Source of the DNA: an uncultured Mediterraneibacter sp.
Lineage (GTDB): Bacteria; Bacillota; Clostridia; Lachnospirales; Lachnospiraceae
Assembly (NCBI GenBank): GCA_944384505.1
Contig: CALWTQ010000036.1
Span: forward strand, 1-38,359
Direction: 5' to 3'
DNA length: 38,359 nt
In this document: positions 185-11,721 of the stretch, piece by piece
How the letters are laid out: each line of letters starts with the position of its first letter
Numbering within the stretch: the stretch's first letter is position 1
The notes under the pieces: model-generated
Database searches by the model: none
Seen by the model: the letters and a program-made list of their open reading frames with translations, nothing else
What the model was told of the DNA's origin: nothing
Translations under genes and position numbers: made by a program

Positions 185-265
185 GCGGATATGGCGGAAT
201 TGGCAGACGCGCCAGATTTAGGTTCTGGTGTCTTTGACGTGCAGGTTCAAGTCCTGTTATCCGCA
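185..265 (+). tRNA. tRNA-Leu (anticodon TAG), integration target
   Basis: Acceptor GCGGATA (185-191) pairs with TATCCGC (258-264), with discriminator A265. The anticodon stem CCAGA/TCTGG encloses TTTAGGT, giving anticodon TAG. A long variable arm follows, as expected for class II tRNA-Leu. Its last 14 bases plus one more are repeated at 9071-9085, so this gene is the attachment site of the adjacent element, which restores an intact 3' end. A weak TTGACA-like box lies at 104-109. Confidence 0.96.
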
Positions 266-266
266 C
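252..266 (+). repeat. attL core of the integrated element (15-bp direct repeat)
   Basis: TCCTGTTATCCGCAC covers the 3' T-arm and acceptor of tRNA-Leu and recurs exactly at 9071-9085. A tyrosine integrase gene starts to the right, with its 3' end facing the tRNA. This is the normal arrangement for elements inserted in tRNA 3' ends. Strand exchange must occur within these 15 bp. Confidence 0.88.
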
Positions 267-272
267 TGAAAA

Positions 273-313
273 GCGGCAGAATGCGCTAAAACAGTGCGTT
301 TTCTGCCGTTTCT
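273..313 (+). terminator. Hairpin terminator after tRNA-Leu / integrase end
   Basis: GCGGCAGAA (273-281) pairs with TTCTGCCGT (301-309), and TGCGC/GTGCG extends the stem inside, followed by TTCTCTTT. It can end transcription from the tRNA. It lies just inside the element, downstream of the integrase stop on the other strand. Confidence 0.6.
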
Positions 314-323
314 CTTTGCCCCT

Positions 324-342
324 TGATACTAAAATGATACTA
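324..342. repeat. Candidate integrase arm-type site, left end
   Basis: Two copies of TGATACT separated by four bases (324-330 and 335-341). The same TGATACT-N4-TGATACT-A pattern, with one spacer base changed, is at 8951-8969 near the other end. Paired short repeats just inside both ends fit arm-type binding sites for a tyrosine integrase or its excisionase. The function is inferred. Confidence 0.6.
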
Positions 343-344
343 TT

Positions 345-1430
345 TTAATAATTATCTGATGAATAGAGCCGGTCTAATTTGTCCGCAACTTCACTTTGCT
401 TTGATGGAAATAGGTGAGAATATATATCAAGTGTGGTCGATACATTCTCATGCCCGAGCCGCTCCGATACCAGCAGCGCAGAGAAGCCGAGCTCGATCAA
501 CAGCGAAGCGTGAGAGTGCCGGAGATCGTGCAGCCGGATGTGATGCAGCCCGGCCAGAGCTTCATGTTTTTTCATGTGCTGCAAGTACGGATTTTTGGAA
601 GAACTAAAAATCCGTGTATCTGGTGTGGCTCCATAGATGCGCTTCATGTGCCGTTCCAGGCACTCACATAAAAACCGGGGAATCGTAATTGTGCGGTTCC
701 CTTTTTCCGTCTTTGGCGGCGTTATGACCGTCCTCCCGTCTATTTTATGGTATGTCTTGTTTATACTGATCGTTCCGGCCTTCAGATCCACGTCAGCAAA
801 GGTCAGGGCCATGAGTTCCCCGATTCTCATGCCGGTGTAGTACAAGACAAGGAAAGCAGTGTAAAACGGATCTGATTTGTCAAACGTAGCAATAAACCGG
901 TCAAATTCTTCGTGAGTCCAAAACTGGACGCTCTTCACTTTCTTTCCAATATTATCCCCCGCAATCCGGCAGGGATTCCTTGCAAGGCCGTAATATTTCA
1001 CCGCAAAATTAAACACGGCAGAGCACTCCATCACGATATTATGCAGGTATGACTGAGACAGCAGCTCTCCGTTTGTGCCTGTGGCTGTCTTTAGTTCTGC
1101 CTGCCACTTCCTTATATCGGCAGCGGTAATACTGCTGAGAGGCTTATCTTTGAAATAAGGAATTACCCACGCTTCAAGACGCCCCTTCTCGCTCTTATAA
1201 GAGCTCAGTTTGGCATGAGCCTTCTTATCCTCAAGAAACAGCGTACACATGGCCGAGAAGCTCATATCTGGACTTCCCTGCTGTTGCTCGAGGAATTGAC
1301 GTTCCCACTCCTTCGCGTCCTTCTGGCGGCTGAATCCGCGCTTCATTTTCTGTTTCTTTGTGCCGGTGTAGTCGGTGTAGTAGCATTTCACAAACCATGC
1401 GCCGGTCTTTTCGTCTTTGTAGACTCCCAT
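345..1430 (-). CDS. int: Tyrosine site-specific integrase
   Basis: A 361-residue phage/ICE-type integrase that would recombine the element with the 3' end of tRNA-Leu. The N-terminal ~50 residues resemble an arm-binding (AP2-like) domain, residues ~55-155 look like a core-binding SAM-like domain, and the rest is catalytic. Catalytic landmarks are R in TGMRIGELMAL, HDLRHSH, the GH of SERLGHENV, and Y in LDIYSHLF. The start is supported by AAAAGGAG nine bases upstream. It lies alone at the left end, pointing to attL, divergent from the replication and capsid genes. Length is normal and no break is seen. Control is probably by its own promoter or read-through from the repressor gene. Confidence 0.96.
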   Translation of the reverse strand: MGVYKDEKTGAWFVKCYYTDYTGTKKQKMKRGFSRQKDAKEWERQFLEQQQGSPDMSFSAMCTLFLEDKKAHAKLSSYKSEKGRLEAWVIPYFKDKPLSSITAADIRKWQAELKTATGTNGELLSQSYLHNIVMECSAVFNFAVKYYGLARNPCRIAGDNIGKKVKSVQFWTHEEFDRFIATFDKSDPFYTAFLVLYYTGMRIGELMALTFADVDLKAGTISINKTYHKIDGRTVITPPKTEKGNRTITIPRFLCECLERHMKRIYGATPDTRIFSSSKNPYLQHMKKHEALAGLHHIRLHDLRHSHASLLIELGFSALLVSERLGHENVSTTLDIYSHLFPSKQSEVADKLDRLYSSDNY

Positions 1431-1450
1431 TTTATCATTCTCCTTTTCAC

Positions 1451-1476
1451 GGCTGGCGGGCTGGATCAGGAGATGA
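1451..1476. repeat. 26-bp direct repeat, copy 1 (flanks immunity module)
   Basis: Begins GGCTGGCGGGCTGGATCA and ends GAGATGA. It matches 2293-2318 at 25 of 26 positions. The two copies bracket the repressor gene, the divergent promoters and the Cro-like gene. Confidence 0.85.
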
Positions 1477-1500
1477 TATAGGTCTCTTTTGAAATGCGGG

Positions 1501-1944
1501 CTATTCGGTGTCTTTGCGCTGGCTTTTTACAAACTCCGCAAACTTCCGGATCTGCTCTAACTCTTCCTCGGTGTATTCGTCACCGTCGAAGTGAGCGGAG
1601 ATAGTAGTTTCCGGTTCTGATTTTGCATCGGGAATATAAGGGGCGCTATCAGAATCACCCGACATAGCATCATTATACTGATATTCATTGAACTTTTCGT
1701 TTTCATCCCCATGACGCACTGTGTCCACGAAGCAATAAAAATAAGGCTCGCCGTTCGGAGCATAACCATAGCCGAGATGCAAAGCGTCAGCTATCTTGTT
1801 CAAGGTGTCCTGCTTTGGTTTGCGCTTGCCTTGTTCGTATTGGGCATAGCTTTGCGCGTTTAGCAATCCAATTTTTTTAGCAATATCTAATTGAGTAAGT
1901 CCAGACCTTTTCCGCGCTGCTTTCAGCCTATCTTTAAAAGCCAT
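1501..1944 (-). CDS. XRE-family repressor (CI-like)
   Basis: A 147-residue protein with an N-terminal helix-turn-helix of the XRE type (KRSGLTQLDIAKKIGL, then SYAQYEQGKRKP). An acidic C-terminal half probably carries oligomerisation or activation signals. There is no Ser-Lys autoprotease motif, so induction is likely not by LexA-type self-cleavage. The start MAFKDRL is chosen because AAAGGATGTGAG precedes it; a further ATG six codons upstream overlaps that ribosome site. It faces away from the Cro-like gene across a 150-bp switch region with operators. It is the expected lysogeny repressor or satellite master repressor; the helper signal that would release it cannot be seen. Confidence 0.9.
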   Translation of the reverse strand: MAFKDRLKAARKRSGLTQLDIAKKIGLLNAQSYAQYEQGKRKPKQDTLNKIADALHLGYGYAPNGEPYFYCFVDTVRHGDENEKFNEYQYNDAMSGDSDSAPYIPDAKSEPETTISAHFDGDEYTEEELEQIRKFAEFVKSQRKDTE

Positions 1945-1967
1945 ATACTCACATCCTTTCATTGTAA

Positions 1968-1996
1968 ATAATACCCCACAGGAAAATTGAAGTCAA
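1968..1996 (-). promoter_or_regulatory. Leftward promoter of the repressor gene
   Basis: On the minus strand TTGACT (1996-1991), a 17-base spacer, and TATTAT (1973-1968), about 25 bases before the repressor start. A near-operator AATC-AAAAA-GAATTA lies just upstream at 1995-2009, which would allow autoregulation. Confidence 0.72.
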
Positions 1997-2015
1997 TCAA
2001 AAAGAATTATTTCTA

Positions 2016-2044
2016 TTGACTTATAACTCAAAAAGAGTTACTAT
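2016..2044 (+). promoter_or_regulatory. Rightward early promoter with embedded operator
   Basis: TTGACT (2016-2021), 17-base spacer, TACTAT (2039-2044). Between the boxes sits a perfect inverted repeat, TAACTC-AAAAA-GAGTTA (2024-2040), well placed for repressor or Cro binding to block polymerase. A degenerate second copy is at 1995-2009. Confidence 0.72.
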
Positions 2045-2095
2045 AAACTTGCAACTAAGTCAATTTGAGATACAAGAAGCGAGGTGATTAAGAGA

Positions 2096-2290
2096 ATGAG
2101 GATCAATAAGAAAAAGTTTGACCTTGCTAAAGCAAGAGCCTGCAAAGGCACAAAAGATCTTGCTGCGGCGGGGATCCCCAAAGGAACGCTGTGCAGAGTG
2201 TACCGCGATGATTTAAAACCGGATACGGTGGGAAAGATTGCGAAGGCTCTCGGCGTTGATGTAACTGAGATCATCGAAATAGAAGACTGA
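2096..2290 (+). CDS. Cro-like HTH regulator
   Basis: A 64-residue basic protein with a compact helix-turn-helix: LAKARACKGTKDLAAAGIPK, then TLCRVYRDDLKPDTVGKIAK, ending with the usual ALGVDVTEIIE of XRE/Cro proteins. ATG at 2096 has GAGGTGA nine bases upstream; the GTG at 2084 lies within that ribosome site. It is the first gene of the rightward transcript, opposite the repressor, so it probably acts as the Cro half of the switch. Ends just before the second copy of the 26-bp repeat. Confidence 0.85.
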   Translation: MRINKKKFDLAKARACKGTKDLAAAGIPKGTLCRVYRDDLKPDTVGKIAKALGVDVTEIIEIED

Positions 2291-2292
2291 CA

Positions 2293-2318
2293 GGCTGGCG
2301 GGCTGGATCAAGAGATGA
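2293..2318. repeat. 26-bp direct repeat, copy 2
   Basis: Partner of 1451-1476 with a single mismatch at the 19th base. It falls directly after the stop of the Cro-like gene. Confidence 0.85.
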
Positions 2319-2322
2319 GTGC

Positions 2323-2338
2323 GTTGCGACGTCGCAAC
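2323..2338. promoter_or_regulatory. Perfect 16-bp palindrome GTTGCGACGTCGCAAC
   Basis: An uninterrupted dyad 17 bases before the next start codon (2355) and just after the 26-bp repeat. No loop is available for an RNA hairpin, so a dimeric DNA-binding protein is the better explanation. The cognate regulator is unknown. Confidence 0.6.
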
Positions 2339-2354
2339 AGAAAGGAGAGGAGAC

Positions 2355-2495
2355 ATGTACATCATAACAGCGACTTACAGAGGCAGGAAGATCACCCGGA
2401 CAGCGTTCGGAGACTTCCAGGCGTTCACGATTGTCAATCAGTTGGCAAGAGACGGATGCGTTGATATCGGCATGAGAAAGGAGGATGAGCAATGA
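2355..2495 (+). CDS. Small protein, unknown function
   Basis: A 46-residue ORF (MYIITATYRGRKITRTAFGD...) preceded by AAAGGAGAGGAG and ending in an ATGA overlap with the following HTH gene. Strong ribosome site and translational coupling make it a real gene, though short. It is likely cytoplasmic, mildly basic, with no membrane segment. I do not recognise the family. It belongs to the early rightward operon between the Cro-like and excisionase-like genes. Confidence 0.7.
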   Translation: MYIITATYRGRKITRTAFGDFQAFTIVNQLARDGCVDIGMRKEDEQ

Positions 2496-2683
2496 CAAGA
2501 CAAGTATACGGTGCAAAGGACCTGCAGGAGCTCTTGGGCGTGTCTGAGAGTAAGGCGTACCAGTATATCAGGATTATGAATGCAGAACTGCAGGAGAAGG
2601 GATTTCTGACCGTAAGGGGCAAGGTGCCGGTGGCCTATGTGAAAGAGCGTTTCTTCGGGGTGACGATGAATGAGAGTGCCTGA
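2492..2683 (+). CDS. Excisionase-like HTH protein
   Basis: A 63-residue protein with one winged HTH-like unit: VYGAKDLQELLGVSESKAYQ followed by the recognition helix YIRIMNAELQEKG and a basic wing, VRGKVPVAYVKERFFG. Size and position (after the switch, before replication) match Xis-type recombination directionality factors of Gram-positive elements; a plain regulator is the alternative. The start overlaps the previous stop (ATGA), with GAAAGGAGGATGAGC upstream. Its likely targets are the TGATACT pairs near the ends. Confidence 0.75.
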   Translation: MTRQVYGAKDLQELLGVSESKAYQYIRIMNAELQEKGFLTVRGKVPVAYVKERFFGVTMNESA

Positions 2684-3140
2684 CGATATTTTCGCTCAGA
2701 TCTGCGCGGAGATGGAAGCTGCGGAGAAGTCCGGAGAGCTGGACGGGATCTTTAAGGGAGAGCCCAGGGCGCCGGATCAGCAGGCCGGCAGAGAACCGCT
2801 CATGCGCTCCCTGAGACCTGATGTGAAGCTCTACAAGAGCACATTCAAGAAGATATTAGGTTTTGAGCTGACTACACCGGGATTCGCCGAGAACGCGCTC
2901 ACACGGCTTGAAATTCTCGGATGTAGTAGAGCGCGGGAGTATTACGAGACGGTAAAAGCCGAGTGGCAACAGGAGCATGATGCGCAGATGAAAAGAGCGG
3001 CAGAATGGTCAAGAGACCGTGGGCCAAATGAATTTGAAAATCTGAAAAGAAAGGCGGTGAGGGAGTCACGGGAAGATTTGAAAAAGATGAGCAACAGCGA
3101 ATTGCTGACGTACTTGAAGAACTTGATCGCAGAGGTTTGA
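2670..3140 (+). CDS. Unknown protein preceding the replication ATPase
   Basis: A 156-residue, highly charged, mostly helical protein. The middle (residues ~50-80) reads SLRPDVKLYKSTFKKILGFE and then LTTPGFAENALTRLEILG. The C-terminal third is a probable coiled coil rich in Glu, Lys and Arg. Overlaps the genes on both sides, so it is translationally coupled to the RepA-type ATPase and may be its partner or loader. I do not recognise a family. No membrane segment, signal or catalytic motif is visible. Confidence 0.8.
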   Translation: MRVPDDIFAQICAEMEAAEKSGELDGIFKGEPRAPDQQAGREPLMRSLRPDVKLYKSTFKKILGFELTTPGFAENALTRLEILGCSRAREYYETVKAEWQQEHDAQMKRAAEWSRDRGPNEFENLKRKAVRESREDLKKMSNSELLTYLKNLIAEV

Positions 3141-4279
3141 CAGATACAAAGAACGGAAAAGTTGTTCCGAAGAAAGAATTCAAACCTATCAGGGCAGTTA
3201 CAGCAGCGGAGCTCGATAAGATGGATATTCCGCCGATAGAATGGATTGTTGAAAAGATCCTTCCTGTTGGACTGTCCATGATCGGAGCGCCGAGCAAATA
3301 CTATAAAAGCTATATGGCGCTGGGGCTGTGTGTGGCTATCTGTAACGGTGGAAAGTTTCTTGATTTTGATTGTCACAAGCACGCGTGTCTATACCTTGAT
3401 CTTGAGAGTACGAAGCGCAGACCGAAAAGCAGACTTAATCAGATTATAGGACCGTTTGGAAAGAAGCCGGATAATTTACATATCATCACAGGAACAGACG
3501 AGCCCGGGCGGATCGGTGACGGATTTGAAAAACAGATAGAATATCAGTTGCAGGAGCATCCAGACATTAAGCTGATTATCGTGGATGTGTTTCAGATGAT
3601 CCGACAACCTGCGAAGAAGAACCAGACAGGATATGACAGGGATTATGATGATTTCAAGGTACTTAAGCAGATTGCGGACAAGCACAACATAGGGCTGATG
3701 CTGATTCACCACACAAGGAAGATGCGAGATCCTTCAGATGTGTTCAACGAGCTTTCTGGATCTGTCGGAGTCATGGGCGCACTTGACTGCGCCTGGGTGA
3801 TTACGAAAGATGATCGTTACTCAGAAGAGGGAACGCTGCATATAACCGGCCGTGATATGGAAACTCAGAAATTAAAGATCCGGTTTAACAAGAAAACATT
3901 TCAGTGGGAGTATATCGGCACGGAGGAAGATATCGAAGCGCAACGGCTCCAGGCGCAATACGATCAGAGCCCGATTGTCGAAACAATCAAGAAGCTGGTA
4001 AAGCAAGGCGGTGGCCGATGGGAAGGCTCAGCCAGTGACATTAAGAGCGCGAGCAAATACTTAAGCTGCGAGATTTACGAAGATGTGAGAAAAGTTGGTG
4101 CTCTTATAAATAAGTTTGAGGCTTTACTCTATTTTGATGGTATTGATTATAAAACAGATAGAAATAAACGGGGGAGAAAATATATTTTTAATGTCATCAA
4201 TGACACTAATGACACTAATGACACCGTTGTCACCAATGACACCGAGCAGATGACAATGGGTGACATGATGACAAGGTGA
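3137..4279 (+). CDS. RepA-type replicative AAA ATPase (RecA-fold helicase family)
   Basis: A 380-residue protein of the RepA/AAA_25 group, probably driving replication of the excised element. N-terminal PPIEWIVEKILPVGLSMIG leads into the P-loop region GAPSKYYKSYMAL. Walker B is IKLIIVDVFQM, and the sensor-like MLIHHTRK and SGSVGVMGALD follow. The C-terminal ~90 residues look like a winged-helix extension. The usual Gly of the GKS motif is Tyr here (KYYKS). TTG start at 3137 overlaps the previous stop; ATG at 3221 is possible but would remove conserved N-terminal residues. The tail NDTNDTNDT is encoded by the iteron-like array, so origin and gene are superimposed. Confidence 0.85.
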   Translation: MTDTKNGKVVPKKEFKPIRAVTAAELDKMDIPPIEWIVEKILPVGLSMIGAPSKYYKSYMALGLCVAICNGGKFLDFDCHKHACLYLDLESTKRRPKSRLNQIIGPFGKKPDNLHIITGTDEPGRIGDGFEKQIEYQLQEHPDIKLIIVDVFQMIRQPAKKNQTGYDRDYDDFKVLKQIADKHNIGLMLIHHTRKMRDPSDVFNELSGSVGVMGALDCAWVITKDDRYSEEGTLHITGRDMETQKLKIRFNKKTFQWEYIGTEEDIEAQRLQAQYDQSPIVETIKKLVKQGGGRWEGSASDIKSASKYLSCEIYEDVRKVGALINKFEALLYFDGIDYKTDRNKRGRKYIFNVINDTNDTNDTVVTNDTEQMTMGDMMTR

Positions 4280-4282
4280 CAT
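4192..4282. repeat. Iteron-like TGACA array, candidate replication origin
   Basis: TGACA occurs at 4201, 4210, 4219, 4237, 4251, 4261, 4269 and 4278, with inverted TGTCA at 4192 and 4229. Most are 8-10 bases apart, close to one helical turn; the first three lie in perfect 9-base units (AATGACACT). An AT-rich stretch (about 4100-4190) lies beside it. Repeats near a rep gene end are a common satellite and plasmid origin design. That they bind this Rep is inferred. Confidence 0.62.
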
Positions 4283-4315
4283 AGATGTTATACCCCCACA
4301 TGAAAGGAGACAAAA

Positions 4316-4615
4316 ATGAAGAATAAGAAAGTGAACTTGCAACTTTTTGGAGATGCAGAAGATAATGCTGTTGATATCCTGAAGGAGCTCGGTGCAGAGT
4401 ACGAGCACATGGATGCAGCAACACAAATAGAGGTTGCAAAGCTGGCGCAGTTAAAGCGGATCGCGGACGTACTGAATGACATTAACAGCACGTTGATTGA
4501 TATGAGCGCACCGATCGAGTCGCTGGCTGAGTGTGTGGATGTTTCCCCGGCGAGATACGGCGGCAGGGAATACACTTTCCTTCATATTGGCGGCAGCGTA
4601 GACGCGGGAGTATAA
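4316..4615 (+). CDS. Small protein with capsid-type LQLFG N-terminus
   Basis: A 99-residue acidic protein beginning MKNKKVNLQLFGDAEDN. The N-terminal NLQLFG signature is common at the start of Firmicutes phage scaffold and capsid proteins, but the rest (two predicted helices, then DVSPARYGGREYTF) is not a recognised capsid fold. ATG is preceded by GAAAGGAGACAAAA. It starts the gene group after the origin. Possible roles are a small scaffold, a capsid-size modifier or a chaperone for the capsid protein; none is proven. Confidence 0.75.
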   Translation: MKNKKVNLQLFGDAEDNAVDILKELGAEYEHMDAATQIEVAKLAQLKRIADVLNDINSTLIDMSAPIESLAECVDVSPARYGGREYTFLHIGGSVDAGV

Positions 4616-4727
4616 AGAAATAAGCCCCATAGGGAGCGGCAACTCTCTACAGGGCAGCACAGCCGGAGCCATGCGGTAAAACACCAGTTACATAATAGCA
4701 TGGATCTTCCGGGGAAAGGAAGAGGAA

Positions 4728-4934
4728 ATGTTTGAGAGAGAAAAGATTATCATGTCCTTTATTGCAGAAATGCAGGATACCACTCCTGATGATTATATGG
4801 AGATTAAGCTGATAATGCTTGCGGTGAGCGCGGGAAATGAAGTGGTACTGAATTTCTTAAAAGCAGCGTTTGAGCTGATCGAAGCACACAGGCCGCGGCT
4901 GATCGGAACGAAGGGAGGCGTTACAGTTGAGTAA
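4728..4934 (+). CDS. Small helical protein, unknown function
   Basis: A 68-residue protein (MFEREKIIMSFIAEMQDTTPDDYMEIK...) predicted to be almost entirely helical and cytoplasmic. GGAAAGGAAGAGGAA precedes the ATG. Its stop overlaps the TTG start of the following 48-residue gene. The 112 bases upstream are non-coding and begin with a weak GC-rich hairpin. No family recognised; by position it belongs with the satellite's small accessory proteins. Confidence 0.72.
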   Translation: MFEREKIIMSFIAEMQDTTPDDYMEIKLIMLAVSAGNEVVLNFLKAAFELIEAHRPRLIGTKGGVTVE

Positions 4935-5073
4935 ATGGGAAGAGCTGATAGTATTACTGATCGAACCAAACACGGTGGATGAACTGAGGAATATGCTTCA
5001 TGAGGACTGTTGGAGCCCAGGAGTGAAGCGGATCTTCCGGGAAGGAATTGAGCGGAGACTTTCAGCAGCATAA
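4927..5073 (+). CDS. 48-residue protein with TTG start
   Basis: Starts with TTG at 4927, seven bases after AAGGGAGGCG, and reads MSKWEELIVLLIEPNTVDEL, continuing to the stop at 5071-5073. The ribosome site, the overlap with the previous stop and the dense element context support it, although ATG-only gene calling would miss it. Amphipathic and charged; no membrane segment or known domain. Function unknown. Confidence 0.62.
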   Translation: MSKWEELIVLLIEPNTVDELRNMLHEDCWSPGVKRIFREGIERRLSAA

Positions 5074-5081
5074 TAAAGCCT

Positions 5082-5243
5082 CTGCCCTCCCGGGGAAGGT
5101 GTTGGCACACCCGATCCGGGCGGCAGGGGAGCAGATCAGAGAGTGAACGGCGCTCCGGCGTGCTGGTAATACTGCCGGAGCATGAGAGAATGAATAACCG
5201 CCCTCCCCGGGGAGCTGCGCCAACAGCAGAACCGGGGCGGCGG
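5082..5243 (+). other. Non-coding stretch with three GC-rich hairpins
   Basis: The 191 bases 5074-5264 contain no convincing gene. Hairpin 1 (5082-5125) pairs CTGCC and CCCGG with CCGGG and GGCAG. Hairpin 2 (5152-5181) has a perfect GCTCCGGC/GCCGGAGC stem. Hairpin 3 (5198-5243) repeats the design of hairpin 1, with CCGCC and CCCCGG pairing with CCGGGG and GGCGG. It is probably a structured leader or processing region of the rightward transcript. Confidence 0.5.
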
Positions 5244-5264
5244 GATGGAAGGAGAAAGGAATAT

Positions 5265-5540
5265 ATGATAAATAAAGATGCAGCAAATGCGCTTTTTGAA
5301 AGGAATGCGTGTCTTGTAGTGGATCGGGATGTTATCCCGGAGAAGGTAGCAATAGAACTTACGAGCAGAGAGGCTGTTGAGTTCGCGAAGAAAATGGAAA
5401 GTAGTGCTTGTAATGGATATGGAATAGGTGGGATCGGCACTATGAGCTATTTGAACCGCAGGGGATTTTTCCTTGCGCTTACATACCAAAATGTAAGGCA
5501 TGAGCTCGGAACGGAGGCAGATCATGAGCATAAAGATTAG
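5265..5540 (+). CDS. Unknown small cytoplasmic protein
   Basis: A 91-residue protein, MINKDAANALFERNACLVVD and on, ending TEADHEHKD. ATG at 5265 is supported by GGAAGGAGAAAGGA; the longer open frame upstream runs through the hairpin region and is unlikely to be translated. A glycine-rich turn GYGIGGIGTMSYL sits near residue 65. The C-terminus overlaps the next gene by 17 bases. No family recognised. Confidence 0.72.
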   Translation: MINKDAANALFERNACLVVDRDVIPEKVAIELTSREAVEFAKKMESSACNGYGIGGIGTMSYLNRRGFFLALTYQNVRHELGTEADHEHKD

Positions 5541-5715
5541 AGTATCATATACCGATGATGAGGAGCTGGCCGGAGTGATCCGGCTGCTCTCCCCGGCGGT
5601 GAAGTCCTGGAAGGTGGCCAAGCGGCAGGAAGGGGCCTATAAAAACGCCTATATTGTTATGAAAGGTGTGGGTTTACCCCATGTTTTGGTTACTGAAAAT
5701 GCCGAAAATCCTTGA
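5524..5715 (+). CDS. Unknown small basic protein
   Basis: A 63-residue protein starting MSIKIRVSYTDDEELAGVIR, with CGGAGGCAGATC just upstream. It is an alpha/beta-looking small protein: strand KIRVSYT, helix EELAGVIRLLSP, strand WKVAKRQ, then YKNAYIVMK. Proteins of this look are frequent in Firmicutes mobile elements, but I cannot name a function. It is the last gene before the likely small RNA and terminator, so it probably closes the early transcript. Confidence 0.72.
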   Translation: MSIKIRVSYTDDEELAGVIRLLSPAVKSWKVAKRQEGAYKNAYIVMKGVGLPHVLVTENAENP

Positions 5716-5732
5716 GAATACAGGGAAAATGA

Positions 5733-5761
5733 TTGCATACCCCCTATGAAAATGATATACT
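5733..5761 (+). promoter_or_regulatory. Promoter before the candidate small RNA
   Basis: TTGCAT (5733-5738), exactly 17 bases, then TATACT (5756-5761). The spacer carries ATACCCCC (overlapping from 5737), a motif also seen at 4290, 1971 and, inverted, 9043. Confidence 0.6.
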
Positions 5762-5767
5762 TGCTTT

Positions 5768-5883
5768 AGAGCATATAGAGCAAGTACCGCACCGGGGATA
5801 CCTCCACGGTGTAAGCCTTAGAGGACGTGGGAAATGACTTGATTCCAGAAGTGGAAGAAAGCTGTTTCCTGCGTCCTCTTTTC
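5768..5883 (+). ncRNA. Candidate structured small RNA of the element
   Basis: Starting about seven bases after the TATACT box, the transcript would be about 115 nt and end at a terminator. Stems: CACCG/CGGTG (about 5790-5812), and a long closing helix AGAGGACG (5820-5827) with CGTCCTCT (5872-5879), continued inside by GGGAAA/TTTCCT and capped by TTCCA-GAAG-TGGAA. TTTTC follows. No known RNA family was recognised. It could also act as a conditional terminator between the early genes and the scaffold-capsid pair. The rest of the gap (5884-6034) shows no clear standard promoter. Confidence 0.5.
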
Positions 5884-6034
5884 ATATGCTCACCTTCGGT
5901 TTTTTATTCCGTAAGTGCGGCATCACGTAAAACTGTCAGAACTAGCTGGGGCGGTGGTTTCATCGTCCTGCTGCCCTGGCTGGATTTCACGCCTAACCAA
6001 ATTTAGTCTACTGGACGTAAAACAGGAGGTTGTT

Positions 6035-6526
6035 ATGGAGAATAACACGAACAAGCCGGGAACCGTTACCGAAGAACAGAAAACGGGACAGCAGCAGGAA
6101 GCCGATCAGCAGCATGAAGAGCATCAGGAGGGGCAGAGACCCCCGAAGACGTTCACAGAGGAAGAGGTCAACGCCATTGTGCAGAAACGCCTCAACCGTG
6201 AGCGGGAGAAGCTGACAAAGGCTTTCGAAGAAGGAACCAGAGAGAGCGACCTTGACGAGAGGGAGCGTAAAATATTAAGAAGAGAGCTAAAGGCAGACAC
6301 ATTGGAGAAGCTGGCTGAAAATGGTATGCCGGCCGGCCTGGCTGATCTGGTGAGCTATGACAGCGCGGAAGAGTGCGAGAAGAGCCTTCAAACCGTTGCG
6401 GCCGTGTTCAATCAGGCTGTAAATGAAGCTGTGAAGAGCAAGGCGCGCCAGACCACCCCGAGAGAAAGCGGACGCTTTTCCGGAAATCCTGATCCGATCG
6501 CTGGAGCCTTTGGCATTAAGAGGTGA
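6035..6526 (+). CDS. Phage capsid scaffold protein (DUF4355-type)
   Basis: A 163-residue, strongly charged protein. The N-terminal 40 residues are Gln/Glu/His-rich and disordered. KTFTEEEVNAIVQKRLNRER begins the long coiled coil, and a short C-terminal basic tail ends AGAFGIKR. This matches the DUF4355 scaffolds encoded directly before HK97-type capsid genes in Firmicutes phages, which guide shell assembly and then leave. ATG at 6035 has a strong AGGAGGTTGTT. Only eight bases separate it from the capsid gene. No protease gene accompanies it. It may set a shell size different from the helper's. Confidence 0.85.
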   Translation: MENNTNKPGTVTEEQKTGQQQEADQQHEEHQEGQRPPKTFTEEEVNAIVQKRLNREREKLTKAFEEGTRESDLDERERKILRRELKADTLEKLAENGMPAGLADLVSYDSAEECEKSLQTVAAVFNQAVNEAVKSKARQTTPRESGRFSGNPDPIAGAFGIKR

Positions 6527-6534
6527 TAGATTAA

Positions 6535-7404
6535 ATGGCTATTGATTTAACGACAAAATATCAGCCTTATGTGGATGAAGTATTTGCCACAGAGAGCAAG
6601 AAATCATTAGTTACAAACAATGATTACAGTTGGGCTGGTGCACATTCAATTAAACTGTACAAAGTGACAACGGGACAGATGAACGACTACGACAGGCCCG
6701 GCGAAAATATGGGGAAAATGCCCGGGGAGACTGTGATCCTGTCCAGATATGGGGCGATCGAGTCTCTGGATGCAACAACAGAAGAGCTGACACTGGCGAA
6801 GGATCGTTCCTTTACATTTGCAATCGACAAGCTGGACGCTGACGAAACGCAGCAGCAGCTTTCCGGAGCGTCTGCCCTGGCCAGACAGCAGCGTGAAGTA
6901 GTAATCCCGGAGGTGGACACTTATGTATACGGAGTAATGGCGGCTAAGGCAGGAACAAAGCCCGCAGCCGTTACGCTGACAGCGGATAACATCTACACGG
7001 AGATCATCAAAGCGACTCAGGTGCTGGATGATGCAGAGGTTCCGGATGATGGCACAAGGGCGCTGATCGTTACCCCTGCGGTGCTTCTGCTTATGAAGCA
7101 GTGCAGCGACATTACACTGAATAGCGACATCGGCGCAGATCTCCGGATAAAGGGAGTTGTTGCGGAGCTTGACGGAAACCGGGTTGTGAAGATCCCGGCA
7201 AAGAGACTCCCGTCAAACTTCGGCTTTATGGTGGCTCATCCGTGCGCTACGGTGGCGCCTACCAAACTAGAGGAATATAAGCTGCATACCAGCCCGCCTT
7301 TCATCAGCGGTGATCTGGTGGAGGGGCGTATCGTGTATGATGCGTTTGTACTGGACAATAAGAAGATGGCGATCTACTATCAGGAGGATCAGCCGTCGGT
7401 ATAA
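6535..7404 (+). CDS. Major capsid protein (HK97-like fold, Firmicutes phage type)
   Basis: A 289-residue capsid protein beginning MAIDLTTKYQPYVDEVFATE. It shows family landmarks: NNDYSWAGAHSIKLYKVTTG, MNDYDRPGENMG, then the spine-helix region DRSFTFAIDKLDADETQQ, VVIPEVDTYVYG, and a C-terminal P-domain region KRLPSNFGFMVAHPCA. Length is typical for family members without a cleaved delta domain. It directly follows its scaffold and is followed by a strong terminator, so the two form a private structural module. Portal, terminase and tail genes that normally flank it are absent. Frames are intact, suggesting selection for function. Confidence 0.9.
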   Translation: MAIDLTTKYQPYVDEVFATESKKSLVTNNDYSWAGAHSIKLYKVTTGQMNDYDRPGENMGKMPGETVILSRYGAIESLDATTEELTLAKDRSFTFAIDKLDADETQQQLSGASALARQQREVVIPEVDTYVYGVMAAKAGTKPAAVTLTADNIYTEIIKATQVLDDAEVPDDGTRALIVTPAVLLLMKQCSDITLNSDIGADLRIKGVVAELDGNRVVKIPAKRLPSNFGFMVAHPCATVAPTKLEEYKLHTSPPFISGDLVEGRIVYDAFVLDNKKMAIYYQEDQPSV

Positions 7405-7414
7405 TTGATAAAAG

Positions 7415-7452
7415 CACCCTGGGCGCTCTCTCCTTGCGTCTGGGGTGTTTTT
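7415..7452 (+). terminator. Strong terminator after the capsid gene
   Basis: CACCCTGGGCGC (7415-7426) pairs along all 12 bases with GCGTCTGGGGTG (7436-7447), counting G-T pairs, followed by TTTTT. Closes the scaffold-capsid transcript; the next ribosome site starts within ten bases. Confidence 0.85.
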
Positions 7453-7468
7453 GAAAGGCGGTGATGAT

Positions 7469-7702
7469 ATGGGGATCCGGTTCAGAATGAAAACACCCAC
7501 AGAGGTACGCCGGGTTCTGGTACGGGTGTCAAACATGGTCGTGAATGGCCAGATTGAAGCCAAGGAAGCAAACAGCATTATTTCAGCCTGTAACGCCGTC
7601 TTGTATGCGATCAAAACGGAAGAACAGCAGAAACGAATAGAGGAGCTCGAGAGGAAGATCACAGAGTATGAGGAGAGCAGGAAGGGCGGTGAATGGTATT
7701 GA
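7469..7702 (+). CDS. Small phage-type protein with C-terminal coiled coil
   Basis: A 77-residue protein: MGIRFRMKTPTEVRRVLVRV, then VVNGQIEAKEANSIISACN, ending in a charged helix EEQQKRIEELERKI. I recognise this pattern from small proteins next to packaging or recombination genes of Firmicutes phages, where the role is unclear. AAAGGCGGTGAT precedes the ATG. The frame overlaps the next gene. In a satellite it might contact helper DNA packaging, but that is a guess. Confidence 0.72.
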   Translation: MGIRFRMKTPTEVRRVLVRVSNMVVNGQIEAKEANSIISACNAVLYAIKTEEQQKRIEELERKITEYEESRKGGEWY

Positions 7703-7995
7703 ATCTAAATGATCTTGAACGAAGGGTGAAGGCCTTGGGGATCGGTCAGGATGATGAGGTCAGCTATACACTTGATGGAACCTTCTGCACTTCCAGTATG
7801 AAGATGTATATCAACCTCTTGAAACAGGGGCGCAACGTCAGCATGTACCATCTGACGCATGGCAGAGCGGAAAGGTGCTGCGCTGCATACTTGAAGGCAG
7901 TGGATGAGATGTTGGAGGAAGACGATCACGATGAACAACGAGCAGATAGTAGCCCGAATCCAGTCCGGGGAGAACGAAGCGGAGAACATGCTTAA
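7693..7995 (+). CDS. Unknown small protein upstream of the sigma factor
   Basis: About 98-100 residues (VLNLNDLERRVKALGIGQDD..., then YINLLKQGRNVSMYHLTHG, and an acidic tail). The ribosome site AAGGGCGGTGA touches the ATG at 7693 but is ideally spaced from the TTG at 7699, so TTG is probably the real start. Its last 65 bases overlap the sigma-like gene in another frame, implying coupled expression. Could be an anti-sigma or sigma partner by position only. Family not recognised. Confidence 0.65.
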   Translation: MVLNLNDLERRVKALGIGQDDEVSYTLDGTFCTSSMKMYINLLKQGRNVSMYHLTHGRAERCCAAYLKAVDEMLEEDDHDEQRADSSPNPVRGERSGEHA

Positions 7996-8815
7996 GCTAT
8001 GGCAGCAGAACCGGGGATTTATCGCAACGATGGCCCGGAAGTATTCAGCCGGGGCAGAGATGGAGGATCTTGAACAGGAGGGCTATATTGCCCTGTGTGA
8101 AGCAGTTCAGCATTATGATCCGGGCCGTGGAATGTCCTTTATCAGTTATGCAGCATTCTGGATCAAGCGCCGGATGCGGATCTGCGCAGACAATAGCCGA
8201 ACAGTGCGTCTTTCCTTCAACGCAGGGGATGAAGTCCGGCAGTACCAGAAGATCATGAGGGAATACCGGCAGGAGTATGGCTGTGATCCCTCAGACCGGG
8301 AGCTGTGCGCCTTCCTGTACGTCAGCCGAGAGAAACTCGACCAGATCAGGAAAGCGGCTCAGATGGGCAATATCCGAAGCCTTGACGAGCCTGTGCAGGG
8401 CATGGAGGGCGATATCAGTATAGGTGATACTGTGCCATCTGGTGAGGACATGGAAGAGGATACCATCAGGGAGATCGACAAGGAGCAGATGAAGCGGGAA
8501 CTGTGGATTGCTGTGGATCAGCTCCCCGGAGATCAACCCGCAGTGCTCAGGATGGTCTACGGGGATGGCATGACCAGGATTAAGGCGGGGGAAGTGCTGG
8601 GGTACGGAAACGGAAAGGTTGGTATAGAAGAACGGAGGGCATTGAACGCGCTTCGGAAGCCTCACAGGTGTAAGAAGTTCCGGGCATACTTTGAGGAATA
8701 TCTCTCAGCCGCTCCGGTTCATCACGTAGGAGTGCGGCGGTTTAAAGAGACATGGACCAGCGAGGTTGAGAGAGAAGCCCTCAGGTGGGCAGAAGAGGAG
8801 TTGGGATATATTTGA
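7931..8815 (+). CDS. Sigma-70-family RNA polymerase sigma factor
   Basis: A 294-residue protein. Region 2 is clear at residues ~45-85: DLEQEGYIALCEAVQHYDPG followed by MSFISYAAFWIKRRM. A region 3-like segment follows (GCDPSDRELCAFLYVSREKL), then NIRSLDEPV. Region 4 (about 190-240) has LPGDQPAVLRMVYGDGMTRI and the helix-turn-helix AGEVLGYGNGKVGIEERRAL. ATG at 7931 overlaps the previous frame. It probably directs polymerase to element promoters, perhaps the capsid operon, which lacks a good standard promoter; it could instead interfere with the helper or host. The ~55-residue tail after region 4 is unusual. Confidence 0.87.
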   Translation: MNNEQIVARIQSGENEAENMLKLWQQNRGFIATMARKYSAGAEMEDLEQEGYIALCEAVQHYDPGRGMSFISYAAFWIKRRMRICADNSRTVRLSFNAGDEVRQYQKIMREYRQEYGCDPSDRELCAFLYVSREKLDQIRKAAQMGNIRSLDEPVQGMEGDISIGDTVPSGEDMEEDTIREIDKEQMKRELWIAVDQLPGDQPAVLRMVYGDGMTRIKAGEVLGYGNGKVGIEERRALNALRKPHRCKKFRAYFEEYLSAAPVHHVGVRRFKETWTSEVEREALRWAEEELGYI

Positions 8816-8964
8816 TGAAGAACCATGAAGGGTATCATGATCCGACAGCCGGGAAGGCGATCAGACGGGCTCACCAGGCGAAACGCCGGGGCAGAGGTAG
8901 CGAAATGCGACCTTTGACCTACAAGGTCGGCGATCTGCCGGGGTTCCCGGTGATACTGAAATGA
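8815..8964 (+). CDS. 49-residue basic protein, last gene of the element
   Basis: Start overlaps the sigma stop (ATGA). It reads MKNHEGYHDPTAGKAIRRAH, then a basic run QAKRRGRG and PLTYKVGDLPGFPVILK. Small proteins with the DPTA...AI-RA pattern occur beside sigma-like genes in Lachnospiraceae phages and elements; function unknown. Its 3' end overlaps the right TGATACT pair, so the coding end and the recombination site share sequence. Confidence 0.68.
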   Translation: MKNHEGYHDPTAGKAIRRAHQAKRRGRGSEMRPLTYKVGDLPGFPVILK

Positions 8965-8969
8965 TACTA
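8951..8969. repeat. Candidate integrase arm-type site, right end
   Basis: TGATACT (8951-8957), four bases, TGATACT (8962-8968). It is the counterpart of 324-342, same orientation, about 100 bases before attR. Confidence 0.6.
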
Positions 8970-8974
8970 AAAAA

Positions 8975-9003
8975 TTGTACAGAGTACAAAAACATGATAT
9001 ACT
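8975..9003 (+). promoter_or_regulatory. Outward-facing promoter with palindromic operator
   Basis: TTGTAC (8975-8980), 17-base spacer, TATACT (8998-9003). The -35 box is half of a perfect dyad TTGTAC-AGA-GTACAA (8975-8989). It points through attR. In the excised circle it would read through attP toward the 273-313 terminator. No gene follows within the element. Confidence 0.55.
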
Positions 9004-9070
9004 ATGCAAAGTTACAAGAGTAAAACAACGGAAAACGGGGTATATAATAGGTAAAAACAGGCGCACTGAC

Positions 9071-9085
9071 TCCTGTTATCCGCAC
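9071..9085 (+). repeat. attR core (15-bp direct repeat)
   Basis: Exact copy of TCCTGTTATCCGCAC from the tRNA-Leu 3' end. Marks the right border of the element; the base after it differs from the left copy. Confidence 0.88.
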
Positions 9086-9097
9086 CAGAGAAGTAAT

Positions 9098-9139
9098 ACT
9101 TAAACCCGCACTAAAAAATTAGTGGTTTGAGTAGTTTTT
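9098..9139 (+). terminator. Terminator just outside attR
   Basis: ACT..AAACC..CACT pairs with AGTG.GTTT.AGT around an A/T loop (9113-9120), followed by AGTTTTT. Probably the original terminator of the tRNA-Leu transcript before the element entered. Confidence 0.55.
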
Positions 9140-9143
9140 ATAG

Positions 9144-9188
9144 GGTGGGCAGTACGATTCTGAGGGTCTGACTGCTTACCTTTTTTTT
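9144..9188 (+). terminator. Strong hairpin with T8 tail
   Basis: GGTGGGCAGT (9144-9153) pairs with ACTGCTTACC (9171-9180), with two G-T pairs, then eight T. A second terminator in tandem; what it originally ended is no longer visible. Confidence 0.72.
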
Positions 9189-9237
9189 GTATTCTGCACT
9201 CTGCCGCTTTAACGAGCAGATGGAGAAAATTGGGAAG

Positions 9238-9625
9238 TTAATGTTCCGATAGAAATTCAATGATACTTTCACTTATTGCCTTGTATTCGTAGTCGTGAAC
9301 ATAATGCGGGCAGTTTAATTCTATATATTCCCCTTCACCCATTCCATTTCATTTATCATAGTTATAGTTGCCGATTAACTTGCAATACACATAAGCGGAA
9401 TATTTATGTCCATGCTGTCATAATACTCTGGAACTGCCATATCAAGCCCAATAATTGCAGACACCTCATCAGGATATTTTTGCGCCCAATATAATGCTTC
9501 AAGCCCTGACATAGAGTGCGGGCATAGGACATAAGGTGCGGTTAATCCTGCTGATGTAAGCGATTGATGTATATAATAAGCAGCAATATAAGCATTGCAA
9601 CAATCACAGTAAAAAATGTTTTCAT
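9238..9625 (-). pseudogene. Broken alpha/beta-hydrolase gene
   Basis: Pieces of one protein appear on the minus strand in different frames. The N-terminus is MKTFFTVIVAMLILLLIIYI (membrane anchor) ending at an early stop. Next comes PHSMSGLEALYWAQKYPDEV with a nucleophile-elbow-like HSMSG, followed by IIGLDMAVPEYY. The C-terminus is HYVHDYEYKAISESIIEF, ending at 9238, with a plausible catalytic His. Stops and missing segments separate them, so it is inactive. Original function is only known at the fold level. Confidence 0.65.
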
Positions 9626-9682
9626 AACTCTTTTCTCTTTGGGGGCTGACGGTATAATAGAACTGTCAGCAGCTCCATTTTG

Positions 9683-9766
9683 GATTTTGCCAACATGCTG
9701 GAACTGTTCCAGCAGTACAATGTGGAGTTTATGTCCTTTACGGAAAAATGGATTGAGGAAGCTTAA
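9683..9766 (+). pseudogene. Fragment resembling a serine recombinase
   Basis: The frame reads DFANMLELFQQYNVEFMSFT and then EKWIEEA before a stop. This resembles the conserved LLELLEEHGVEF.S.TE stretch of large serine recombinases. Only about 27 residues remain. It may be a relic of an earlier element beside the tRNA. The next 75 bases could encode a separate scrap ending FDFGDWSVQL. Confidence 0.4.
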
Positions 9767-9856
9767 AGTGGAAGGAAAACTTCATCACGGAAGCGGCACA
9801 TTCGATTTTGGTGATTGGTCAGTGCAGCTATGAATTTTTAGGAAGGGAGTGCGGAA

Positions 9857-10090
9857 ATGGTGACTTCAAATATAAAAGCGCGAATCCCCGGAGAGCTGTG
9901 CGAAAAGCAATTTATCGAATACAGCAAAGAAGGGTACCCTGCAACATTTACTGTTACGAATGTAGAGATGTATAGACGCTGGGAATTTGATAATGAAATT
10001 AAATTTTCATTGTTGCCCTTGTCAGTCTGTGATATCAGATTTTCAAGGGAAAGAAATAGCCGCCAACTACTGCGAATAGTTGACGGCTGA
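9857..10090 (+). CDS. Unrecognised ORF, possibly a gene remnant
   Basis: A 77-residue frame with a reasonable ribosome site (GGAAGGGAGTGCGGAA). Residues 1-48 (KARIPGELCEKQFIEYSKEG and on to MYRRWEFDNE) look like ordinary protein. The remainder, LLPLSVCDIRFSRERNSRQL, looks like a different source read in this frame. It lies in a region of broken genes, so a truncated gene fused to non-coding sequence is the best reading. No family identified. Confidence 0.4.
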   Translation: MVTSNIKARIPGELCEKQFIEYSKEGYPATFTVTNVEMYRRWEFDNEIKFSLLPLSVCDIRFSRERNSRQLLRIVDG

Positions 10091-10126
10091 TGTTGAAAAG
10101 CATTTATAAGACTATCTTCTGCTTCC

Positions 10127-10687
10127 TTAAAATGCTCCCAGATGCTCCAGCAGAATCTTAAAACCGAGCAGAACCAGTATAAGCCCTCCGGCAAACTCGG
10201 CCTTTGCTTTATACTTTGTCCCAAATACATTCCCGATTTTAACCCCAAGTGCAGAGATGATAAAAGTCGTCACTCCGATAAAGAGAACTGCGGCAACGAT
10301 CTGGACCTTAAGGAATGCAAATGTGATCCCCACAGCAAGCGCGTCAATACTTGTAGCGACAGCGAGAAGAAACATAGTCCGGATATCAAGAGAATCGTCT
10401 TCGCTCTCACATTCTCCTGAACAGGCTTCACGGATCATGTTTACACCGATAATTCCCAGCAGAACAAAGGCGATCCAGTGGTCGACGGATGTGATTTTGT
10501 CCTGGAACTGTACGCCCAGCAGATAGCCGAGCACCGGCATTAGGGCCTGGAACCCCCCGAACCAGAGGCCGACGATGACAGTTTTTCGTACAGAGATCTT
10601 TGGCATTGCAAGCCCCTTACAGACGGACACTGCAAATGCATCCATTGATAAACCTACGGCTAAAATAAAAAGTTCAACAAGTCCCAT
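10127..10687 (-). CDS. mntP: Manganese efflux pump MntP
   Basis: A 186-residue membrane protein with six hydrophobic segments that exports Mn2+. It is built as two repeats, each with the family Asp motif: [10 protein letters not shown] (D16) and [11 protein letters not shown] charged loop [10 protein letters not shown] separates the halves. Length matches the family. TAGGAGGAAAATT precedes the ATG. It stands alone behind a yybP-ykoY manganese riboswitch with a terminator, so high manganese should switch it on. Family and regulator agree, so confidence is high. Confidence 0.96.
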
Positions 10688-10714
10688 AATTTTCCTCCTA
10701 TGTGATTATGACGC

Positions 10715-10743
10715 AAAAAAAACAGACGCCATGCCGCGCCTGT
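10715..10743 (-). terminator. Riboswitch expression-platform terminator
   Basis: On the minus strand ACAGGCGC pairs with GCGTCTGT around a short loop and is followed by eight T, 28 bases before the mntP start. The sequence between aptamer and terminator can form a competing GAGACTCATG/CATGTCTC helix. Confidence 0.85.
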
Positions 10744-10775
10744 CAGAATGAGACATGCACAGCACAAAAACTGTA

Positions 10776-10862
10776 CATGAGTCTCATCATTTAATGTAAG
10801 CCAGGCCTTTCACAGGCCAGCATGTTGACTTACCACGTGTGTACGCCGATTACTCCCTCATG
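10776..10862 (-). promoter_or_regulatory. yybP-ykoY (Mn2+) riboswitch
   Basis: P1 is CATGAG (10862-10857) pairing with CTCATG (10781-10776). Conserved loop elements sit in the right places: GGAGTA directly after the 5' P1 strand and GAGA directly before the 3' strand. A long hairpin with GTAAG/CTTAC and GGCCTG..AGGCC makes the second arm. Located before mntP, as in many bacteria. Confidence 0.88.
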
Positions 10863-10938
10863 AATCGATAATATATTATCATCAAGGAGCATGTAATGCA
10901 AGAGAAAAATCGACAGAATCCGGCTTCTGACGCCGGAT

Positions 10939-10953
10939 AGCTGAACTGCTGCC
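10939..10953. repeat. Dispersed intergenic repeat, copy 1
   Basis: AGCTGAACTGCTGCC, matching the reverse complement of the GTAACAGTTCAGCC family. It lies between mntP and the response-regulator promoter. Confidence 0.5.
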
Positions 10954-10975
10954 GGATTTACTGAAGTTCACAGGA

Positions 10976-11004
10976 TTGACATATTTCTCTGGTAAACTTA
11001 CATT
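10976..11004 (+). promoter_or_regulatory. Promoter of the two-component operon
   Basis: TTGACA (10976-10981), 17 bases, TACATT (10999-11004), 24 bases before the response-regulator start. Confidence 0.68.
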
Positions 11005-11028
11005 AATTATGAGAAGGAGTGGAACGGT

Positions 11029-11706: not shown

Positions 11707-11721
11707 TGTGGGGTGAAGATC

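Follow-up and report, generated by a model that had tools for sequence, protein, structure and literature searches.

A scaffold- and capsid-bearing integrated element in a Mediterraneibacter genome and its relatives: a candidate family of phage satellites

The DNA examined here, hereafter the window, is a stretch of 38,359 nucleotides corresponding to contig C36 of a 3.95-Mb draft genome of an uncultured Mediterraneibacter sp. Positions 252-9085 hold an intact integrated element of roughly 8.8 kb, flanked by two exact 15-bp repeats. The element encodes a capsid assembly scaffold and a major capsid protein, and no terminase, portal, protease, connector, tail, or lysis gene was recognised in it with Pfam and PHROG profiles. 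Comparisons with related loci indicate that its family is real, recurs, and is maintained. The family is distinct, occurs mostly in gut Clostridia, and probably consists of phage satellites. An earlier reading of the sequence alone (the original prediction) had named an integrase, a repressor/Cro switch, a Rep ATPase, a scaffold, an HK97-type capsid, and a sigma-like factor. All of these were recovered by profile and the capsid fold by a structural model, and the reported lack of terminase, portal, head-tail, tail, and lysis genes was confirmed. The features are given below, with lengths in amino acids (aa), HTH for helix-turn-helix, and counts that refer to the 25 elements compared further on.

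185..266, forward: tRNA-Leu (tag) by ARAGORN and Rfam, the integration target, kept whole at the left end
252..266, forward: attL core TCCTGTTATCCGCAC, an exact repeat identical to the tRNA-Leu 3' end
345..1430, reverse: tyrosine integrase (PF00589 E 3.2e-24; phrog_1 E 4.4e-82)
1501..1944, reverse: CI-like HTH repressor (PF01381 E 5.6e-13), starting at 1944, where a sequence like a ribosome-binding site precedes, or at 1962
2084..2290, forward: Cro-like HTH protein, weak matches (PF13443 E 7.4e-5; phrog_4 E 1e-5)
2323..2338, no strand: 16-bp palindrome GTTGCGACGTCGCAAC, a candidate operator or RNA hairpin
2355..2495, forward: 46-aa protein from the sequence, directly after the palindrome, no function assigned
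2492..2683, forward: 63-aa protein, cluster in 9 of 25 elements, possibly excisionase-like
2670..3140, forward: 156-aa protein, 81% identical in L015, with no PHROG match and no Pfam match over the cut-off
3137..4279, forward: AAA_25 (RepA/primase-helicase-like) replication ATPase (PF13481 E 7.8e-22), starting at 3137 or 3221, 98% identical to the L015 copy
4316..4615, forward: 99-aa protein, conserved in some relatives
4728..4934, forward: 68-aa protein, tblastn match in L030
5160..5540, forward: 126-aa protein, conserved in some relatives
5524..5715, forward: 63-aa protein, cluster in 8 of 25 elements
6035..6526, forward: capsid assembly scaffold (DUF4355), 163 aa (PF14265 E 4.5e-12; phrog_172 E 4.7e-22)
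6535..7404, forward: HK97-fold major capsid protein, 289 aa (phrog_422 E 2.4e-55; AF2 and Foldseek)
7469..7702, forward: 77-aa two-helix protein (o85 family), behind the capsid in many relatives
7693..7995, forward: 100-aa protein, no function assigned, matched among the loci compared by the window's own copies only
7931..8815, forward: sigma-70-family factor (PF04542 E 5.2e-13, PF04539, PF04545; phrog_351 E 4.5e-41), starting at 7904 or 7931
8812..8964, forward: 50-aa protein containing NHEGYHDPTA (phrog_6568 E 1.8e-7), with relatives
9071..9085, forward: attR core TCCTGTTATCCGCAC, the second exact copy of the repeat

The main reading frames of the element are open. The scaffold most likely starts at 6035, since a ribosome-binding site precedes this position and the conserved domain is retained whole. 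Besides the integrase, capsid, and sigma genes, the AAA_25 ATPase is the only large open reading frame (ORF), and no ORF of terminase or portal size is left unassigned. The conserved 77-aa gene at 7469..7702 had escaped the original prediction. The idea that its product might resemble a small terminase is not supported: the PHROG matches are weak and unnamed, and the model consists of two helices. One member of the o85 family was searched for among annotated phages, without a match. Of 13 loci from one search for the family, four (L123, L126, L127, and L129) were checked by terminase search alone, which found none.

The borders indicate that the element is precisely integrated at the tRNA-Leu gene. 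TCCTGTTATCCGCAC occurs twice in the window, even with two mismatches allowed, while shuffled sequences gave a mean of 0.10 matches and reached two matches in 2 of 100 shuffles. Stretches from three relatives (G019, G021, and G007) were inspected for an unoccupied site. The same-genus relative G019 has such an empty site, with tRNA-Lys and tRNA-Leu followed by the window's right-flank sequence (81% identity over 118 bp downstream of tRNA-Leu). G021 has the tRNA-Leu with a different sequence behind it, and the G007 stretch contains no tRNA. The clean att repeat claimed earlier is upheld by the two exact copies and the empty site. Just outside attR, at 9375-9560, short minus-strand open frames resemble, by eye, a fragment of an alpha/beta-hydrolase gene.

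The capsid as a single query retrieved 17 genome loci at 52-71% identity and 4 loci in viral contigs. The named hosts of the 17 loci include Mediterraneibacter (the bins with L015 and L023), Blautia, Anaerostipes, Acetatifactor, Butyrivibrio, Coprococcus, other Clostridia, and one Selenomonas bin; Mediterraneibacter glycyrrhizinilyticus and Blautia sp. XA-2221 are among them. These genera mostly belong to Lachnospiraceae, the setting that had been proposed. A search with a capsid alignment yielded 79 loci, the best of 132 relatives. A close capsid was found in 4 of 36 same-genus relatives, and 31 of 299 genomes of the bacterial family (a tally that counts 299 genera) matched the capsid at E 1e-3 or better. 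At least 8 of these 299 genomes, that of the window included, hold a capsid of the element branch described below, so the elements are not rare.

The layout was compared in 25 elements chosen as apparently complete, several with right ends set by hand. They were drawn from capsid searches, so that the choice itself ensures a capsid in each (clustering shows it in 24, tblastn in L053). The scaffold adjoins the capsid in all 25 (23 by clustering, L013 and L024 separately). A repressor/Cro cluster is found in 24 and a tyrosine integrase in 23; of the other two, L072 carries a different type of recombinase ORF and L029 lacks its left end. The sigma cluster occurs in 15. Behind the capsid of L029, as well as of L046, transcriptional regulators of the phrog_36 type are found instead of a sigma factor. 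Outside this set stand the terminase-bearing loci L063-L065 and L068-L070, together with others such as L026, L031, L035, L045, L046, L058, L060, and L061. The expectation that relatives share the gene order was borne out: the 25 elements have the layout in common, and most relatives examined have no recognisable terminase or portal. Eleven contigs with end repeats of 28-127 bases close to 7,611-10,429 bases, and L061 is a tandem contig that contains the same element twice with a period of 8,513. Such end repeats point to circular or head-to-tail DNA, or to an assembly effect thereof, and do not imply packaging.

The 60 larger element ORFs that were scanned (56 of the 71 unassigned ORFs of at least 120 aa, plus four window ORFs) matched 23 Pfam families, all of them of replication, recombination, regulation, or unknown function; none was a terminase, portal, protease, tail, or lysis family. 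A resolvase/recombinase match appeared once. By PHROG, three of the elements gave a neck protein, an adaptor, and a tape measure, respectively (L016, L052, and L092, below). The 15 ORFs left out lie on the minus strand, measure at most 171 aa, and were judged antisense. With PHROG, the first scan named 25 of 99 families and a rescan of 44 ORFs, mostly non-replication genes, named all 23; for about 30 ORFs, mostly replication genes, full family lists come from Pfam only. No defence-system family was seen among 44 element ORFs. These ORF scans carry the statement that terminase is absent. The terminase profile phrog_2 has matches in 12 of 50 and 16 of 35 records and finds many phages, but it misses terminase-like ORFs seen by eye in L071 and in the L045 prophage, so a single miss is weak. 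The portal profile phrog_12 proved useless (0 of 50 records, with both control phages missed) and was replaced by PF05133, which matched 8 of 50 records.

The gene content behind the capsid differs between relatives. In the window and many relatives this slot holds the o85 gene, whereas L016 has a neck/tail-completion protein (phrog_222 E 1.2e-38), L052 a head-tail adaptor (phrog_615 E 1.9e-36), and L092 a 592-aa tape-measure-like protein between the capsid and sigma genes (652-2427; phrog_6900 E 1.8e-66). In L063, a 7.4-kb linear contig in which no integrase was noticed, the order is scaffold, capsid, TerS, TerL, SPP1-type portal, and then sigma gene. L068-L070 have TerS (by eye) and TerL downstream of the capsid, and no portal was noticed there. 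In the phage-like contig L065 (5460-12860), a capsid gene of the satellite type stands between TerL and portal, in addition to the contig's own scaffold and major head protein (phrog_247). The original prediction would have been undermined by relatives that are full prophages carrying these genes. Most relatives show the compact order instead, while L063 and L068-L070 have a terminase downstream of the capsid and L065 combines both kinds of head gene in one contig. In L071 (2210-9655), a terminase-like ORF adjoins a satellite scaffold and capsid, then come an integrase-like ORF and another that is capsid-like; apart from the capsid, these were identified by eye.

The AlphaFold2 (AF2) model of the capsid protein has the HK97 fold (pLDDT 76, pTM 0.73). 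Its best Foldseek match in the PDB is the capsid of phage Che8 (8e16; E 1.6e-12, TM 0.56), which the capsid-family profile also matches (E 1.4e-10); encapsulins, which have the same fold, are matched by the model as well. Matches are weaker among annotated phages (108 records, best identity 45%), and plasmids gave 31 records with a best identity of 41%. Pairwise ratios of nonsynonymous to synonymous substitution (dN/dS) are 0.03-0.13 for the capsid in the five of eight pairs that are unsaturated, none of which includes the window, whose pair was saturated, and 0.10-0.28 for the scaffold in six of eight pairs; since most dS values are close to 1 or higher, the ratios are approximate. They indicate that both genes are under purifying selection. 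Together with the open main frames, the low ratios in relatives agree with the earlier remark that no gene decay is visible, and the conserved capsid is not the lone degenerate copy that would have spoken against a satellite.

In the capsid tree, 109 loci gave 96 usable capsid ORFs and, after L018 was dropped, 95 rows. A branch with 99% support separates 57 rows, namely 51 without detected terminase and 6 with (L063, L064, L065, and the identical L068-L070), from 24 rows labelled as phage and 14 without detected terminase, many of these short contigs. The tree was built by a quick method with SH-aLRT support only and is drawn with a midpoint root. Its 'no terminase' labels derive in part from fragments and from a profile that does not find every terminase, and L033, L100, and L107 were labelled as phage without a terminase match, from tail genes or record length. 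A likeness between the element scaffold and that of the host prophage C21 (43% over 65 aa) was set aside, as Streptococcus phages reach 37-48% there too.

The element has the genes and sites generally expected of a satellite: its own integrase, lysogeny-type regulators, a replication ATPase, and intact att sites, without a full virion gene set. Relatives occur as circular or head-to-tail DNA of about 8-10 kb. The explanation judged probable is that these satellites build their own small shell and borrow portal, packaging motor, and tail from a helper. An active helper tailed phage would cause the element to excise and replicate, and the element's sigma factor would help to transcribe its late genes. 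The scaffold would then direct the capsid protein into a small shell, probably below triangulation number T=4, into which the helper portal would be built and which the helper terminase would fill; the addition of helper tails would finish the particle. Where a relative has a terminase, portal, neck, adaptor, or tape-measure gene behind the capsid, it would be adjusted to a helper or less in need of one. The pattern of the slot seems to fit elements whose heads are self-made and have to suit necks and motors from elsewhere. A bolder form of this proposal, taken as a whole, is tentative and somewhat doubtful. The elements could be minimal satellites that encode the whole of their shell. At T=3 or less, with genomes of 7.6-10.4 kb, this shell would be smaller than all known heads of tailed phages and would accept the portal, motor, and tail of a helper; new helpers might be met by exchanging the neck, adaptor, tape measure, terminase, and portal behind the capsid.

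A candidate for a helper in close association is seen at L045. There, a sister element (2832-13208) lies inside the major head gene of a prophage, which is split with profile positions 2-98 on one side and 154-294 on the other. The 9-base repeat ATGGACATT, one of three 9-base repeats present, stands in frame at both joints. The record contains minor head, scaffold, connector, major tail, and tape-measure genes by PHROG and terminase-, portal-, and lysin-like ORFs by eye; the phrog_2 and PF05133 profiles found no match in it. Element and prophage share exactly, in opposite order, two neighbouring 16-base palindromes (L045 5376-5408 and L178 2334-2366; counterpart in the window at 2323-2338), which precede an early gene in the element and a lysin-like ORF in the prophage. 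GTTGYRANNTYRCAAC occurs in 6 of 178 loci, namely L013, L015, L023, L045, the capsid-bearing fragment L087, and the L045 prophage; the host genome has it at a single site, which lies within the element of the window (2323-2338). It is absent from L016, L019, L022, L030, L042, and L058, and a looser form also matches the phage contig L115 and the chromosomal stretch L171. The window element, located at tRNA-Leu, is not inserted in a late gene of a prophage, unlike that of L045. In L058 (1-4126), a satellite integrase-like ORF comes right after phage tail-like genes, as judged by eye; this locus also has an SPP1-type portal and is possibly another helper-embedded case.

Two tailed prophages were detected in the host genome. 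C137 has a PF04860 portal, a ClpP-type protease, and a PF05065 capsid, and C21 has an SPP1-type portal, a MuF protein, a PF05065 capsid, and, by similarity, a DUF4355-like scaffold. C21 appears to be the better helper candidate of the two because its portal type matches that found with phages of the element's capsid family.

Several observations weigh against a self-made shell filled by a helper. The sigma cluster is missing from 10 of the 25 elements, and the TerL frame of L068-L070 contains one stop. The longest packaging-site-like word common to the element and the two host prophages did not exceed the control (16 vs 15 bases). Strong terminase matches (E < 1e-10) were found in 7 of 12 element-bearing genomes and in 7 of 26 controls, an excess that is at best suggestive, given a profile that misses some terminases; the comparison excludes G215, which is partial, and G340, whose capsid lies on the phage side of the tree. 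Published systems add to this. The literature is compared here from excerpts of PMC8569155, PMC10690885, PMC8530359, PMC12324425, PMC7762592, PMC6893505, PMC6092414, and PMC10111431. In these excerpts, the capsid genes of Gram-negative phage-inducible chromosomal islands (PICIs) are reported to be dispensable for transfer (PMC10111431), and EcCICFT073 is packaged in full-size heads (PMC6092414). Owning a capsid gene is therefore no proof that the element uses its own shell.

The self-made shell was ranked ahead of capsid redirection, which is considered unlikely and yet survives best among the rivals. In that case, the element capsid would mix with that of the helper and, together with the scaffold, force small helper heads, as Ccm does in the Staphylococcus aureus pathogenicity island (SaPI) SaPIbov5. 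Ccm is a satellite capsid homologue, 24% identical to that of its helper, and sits at the pentamers (PMC8569155). The L045 prophage capsid belongs to the same broad family as the element capsids (phrog_422), its fragments being 25-28% identical to them. However, the Ccm helper phi12 has no separate scaffold gene according to the excerpt (PMC8569155), whereas a scaffold accompanies the capsid in all 25 elements, and the two host prophages have capsids of another family, PF05065.

Less probable still is a secondary role for captured late genes, with the capsid as a backup or interference copy and the element travelling as multimers in unmodified helper heads. The capsid genes reported as dispensable, present in 21 of 29 reference Gram-negative PICIs (PMC10111431), would suit this explanation, as would L065, where a satellite-type capsid accompanies the contig's own scaffold and major head protein. 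Most element capsids, however, group on one side of the 99% branch instead of being scattered as recent captures, and capsid and scaffold are under purifying selection.

A defective remnant, left where an ordinary prophage had shed the rest of its late genes, is a very improbable reading and was rejected. Related capsids do occur in full phages, the best 11 annotated matches being records of 34-38 kb at 41-45% identity, e.g., Streptococcus phage Javan246, but the same compact architecture recurs in 25 elements, 11 of them circular contigs, with low dN/dS, open main frames, intact att sites, and the empty site in G019. An autonomous tiny virus, packaging itself by an unrecognised motor among its small genes, is hardly credible: it could draw on integration, replication, capsid, and scaffold genes and on conserved small genes such as the o85 family, but no unassigned ORF has the size of a terminase or portal, and terminase or neck genes of the ordinary phage kind are present in some relatives.

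If the elements do build their own shells, they would supply the missing step from satellites that only remodel the capsid of a helper to satellites with a whole head and packaging set, and their head proteins would be combinable with foreign portals and motors. The size of the circular relatives, 7.6-10.4 kb, would bear on the missing tailed-phage shell of T=3 or smaller, provided that monomers are packaged. Luque et al. (2020, PMC7762592) give an average of ~11.8 kb for T=3 and 13.2-24.5 kb for T=4, and describe nine circular gut genomes of 7.3-8.5 kb, with a predicted T of about 2.33, that encode major capsid proteins. Sugimoto (2021, PMC8530359) reported 107 small terminally redundant sequences with HK97 capsids. 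As far as the excerpts go, these genomes were treated as small tailed phages or not characterised further, and they are compared here by description. Searches of an open-access library, which lacks most subscription papers and preprints, gave no account of a satellite family with scaffold plus capsid in Lachnospiraceae.

Javan246 has a capsid related to that of the element (45-47% identity). Unlike the element, it is a full phage of 38 kb that has a terminase, an SPP1-type portal, and a tail, and its scaffold belongs to another Pfam family (PF06810). The stretch with its head genes encodes TerS, TerL, SPP1-type portal, minor capsid, scaffold, and capsid, with no protease there. The absence of a protease from the element, which was confirmed, consequently says little.

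The compact, integrating element with scaffold and capsid kept, and with most relatives lacking a recognisable terminase or portal, is consistent with the proposed satellite with a two-gene capsid module; the contrast drawn with known satellites was overstated. According to the excerpts, satellites with a capsid gene and without the remaining head set are already known in SaPIbov5 (Ccm), PmCI172, and EcCICFT073, as well as in the 21 reference Gram-negative PICIs mentioned above; SaPIbov5 represents the cos-type SaPIs. SaPIbov5 is likewise a Gram-positive satellite with a capsid-protein homologue. Ccm alone redirects helper assembly, forms no shell alone, and has a cleaved N-terminal delta domain (PMC8569155), whereas the window element pairs its capsid with its own scaffold gene. 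The Gram-negative PICIs resemble it as small elements with integrase, regulator, replication, and capsid genes, and the helper-embedded 11capE of E. coli is inserted in the capsid gene of its helper (PMC10111431), as in L045. They differ in their hosts and in their size (10-20 kb in the excerpts vs about 8-10 kb here), and the elements described here have a paired scaffold and often a sigma factor. Capsid-forming PICIs (cf-PICIs) encode capsid, protease, portal, connectors, both terminase subunits, and an HNH nuclease, as excerpted from PMC10690885. The window element, which encodes a capsid, would likewise be a satellite that builds its own capsid and takes helper tails, but it retains scaffold and capsid only, with no recognised portal, protease, connector, or terminase. 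The cf-PICI gene set is found in part in L063 and L068-L070, L063 being nearer to cf-PICIs. The scaffold-plus-capsid satellites are a variation on the precedents set by SaPIbov5 Ccm, the capsid-bearing Gram-negative PICIs, and the cf-PICIs.

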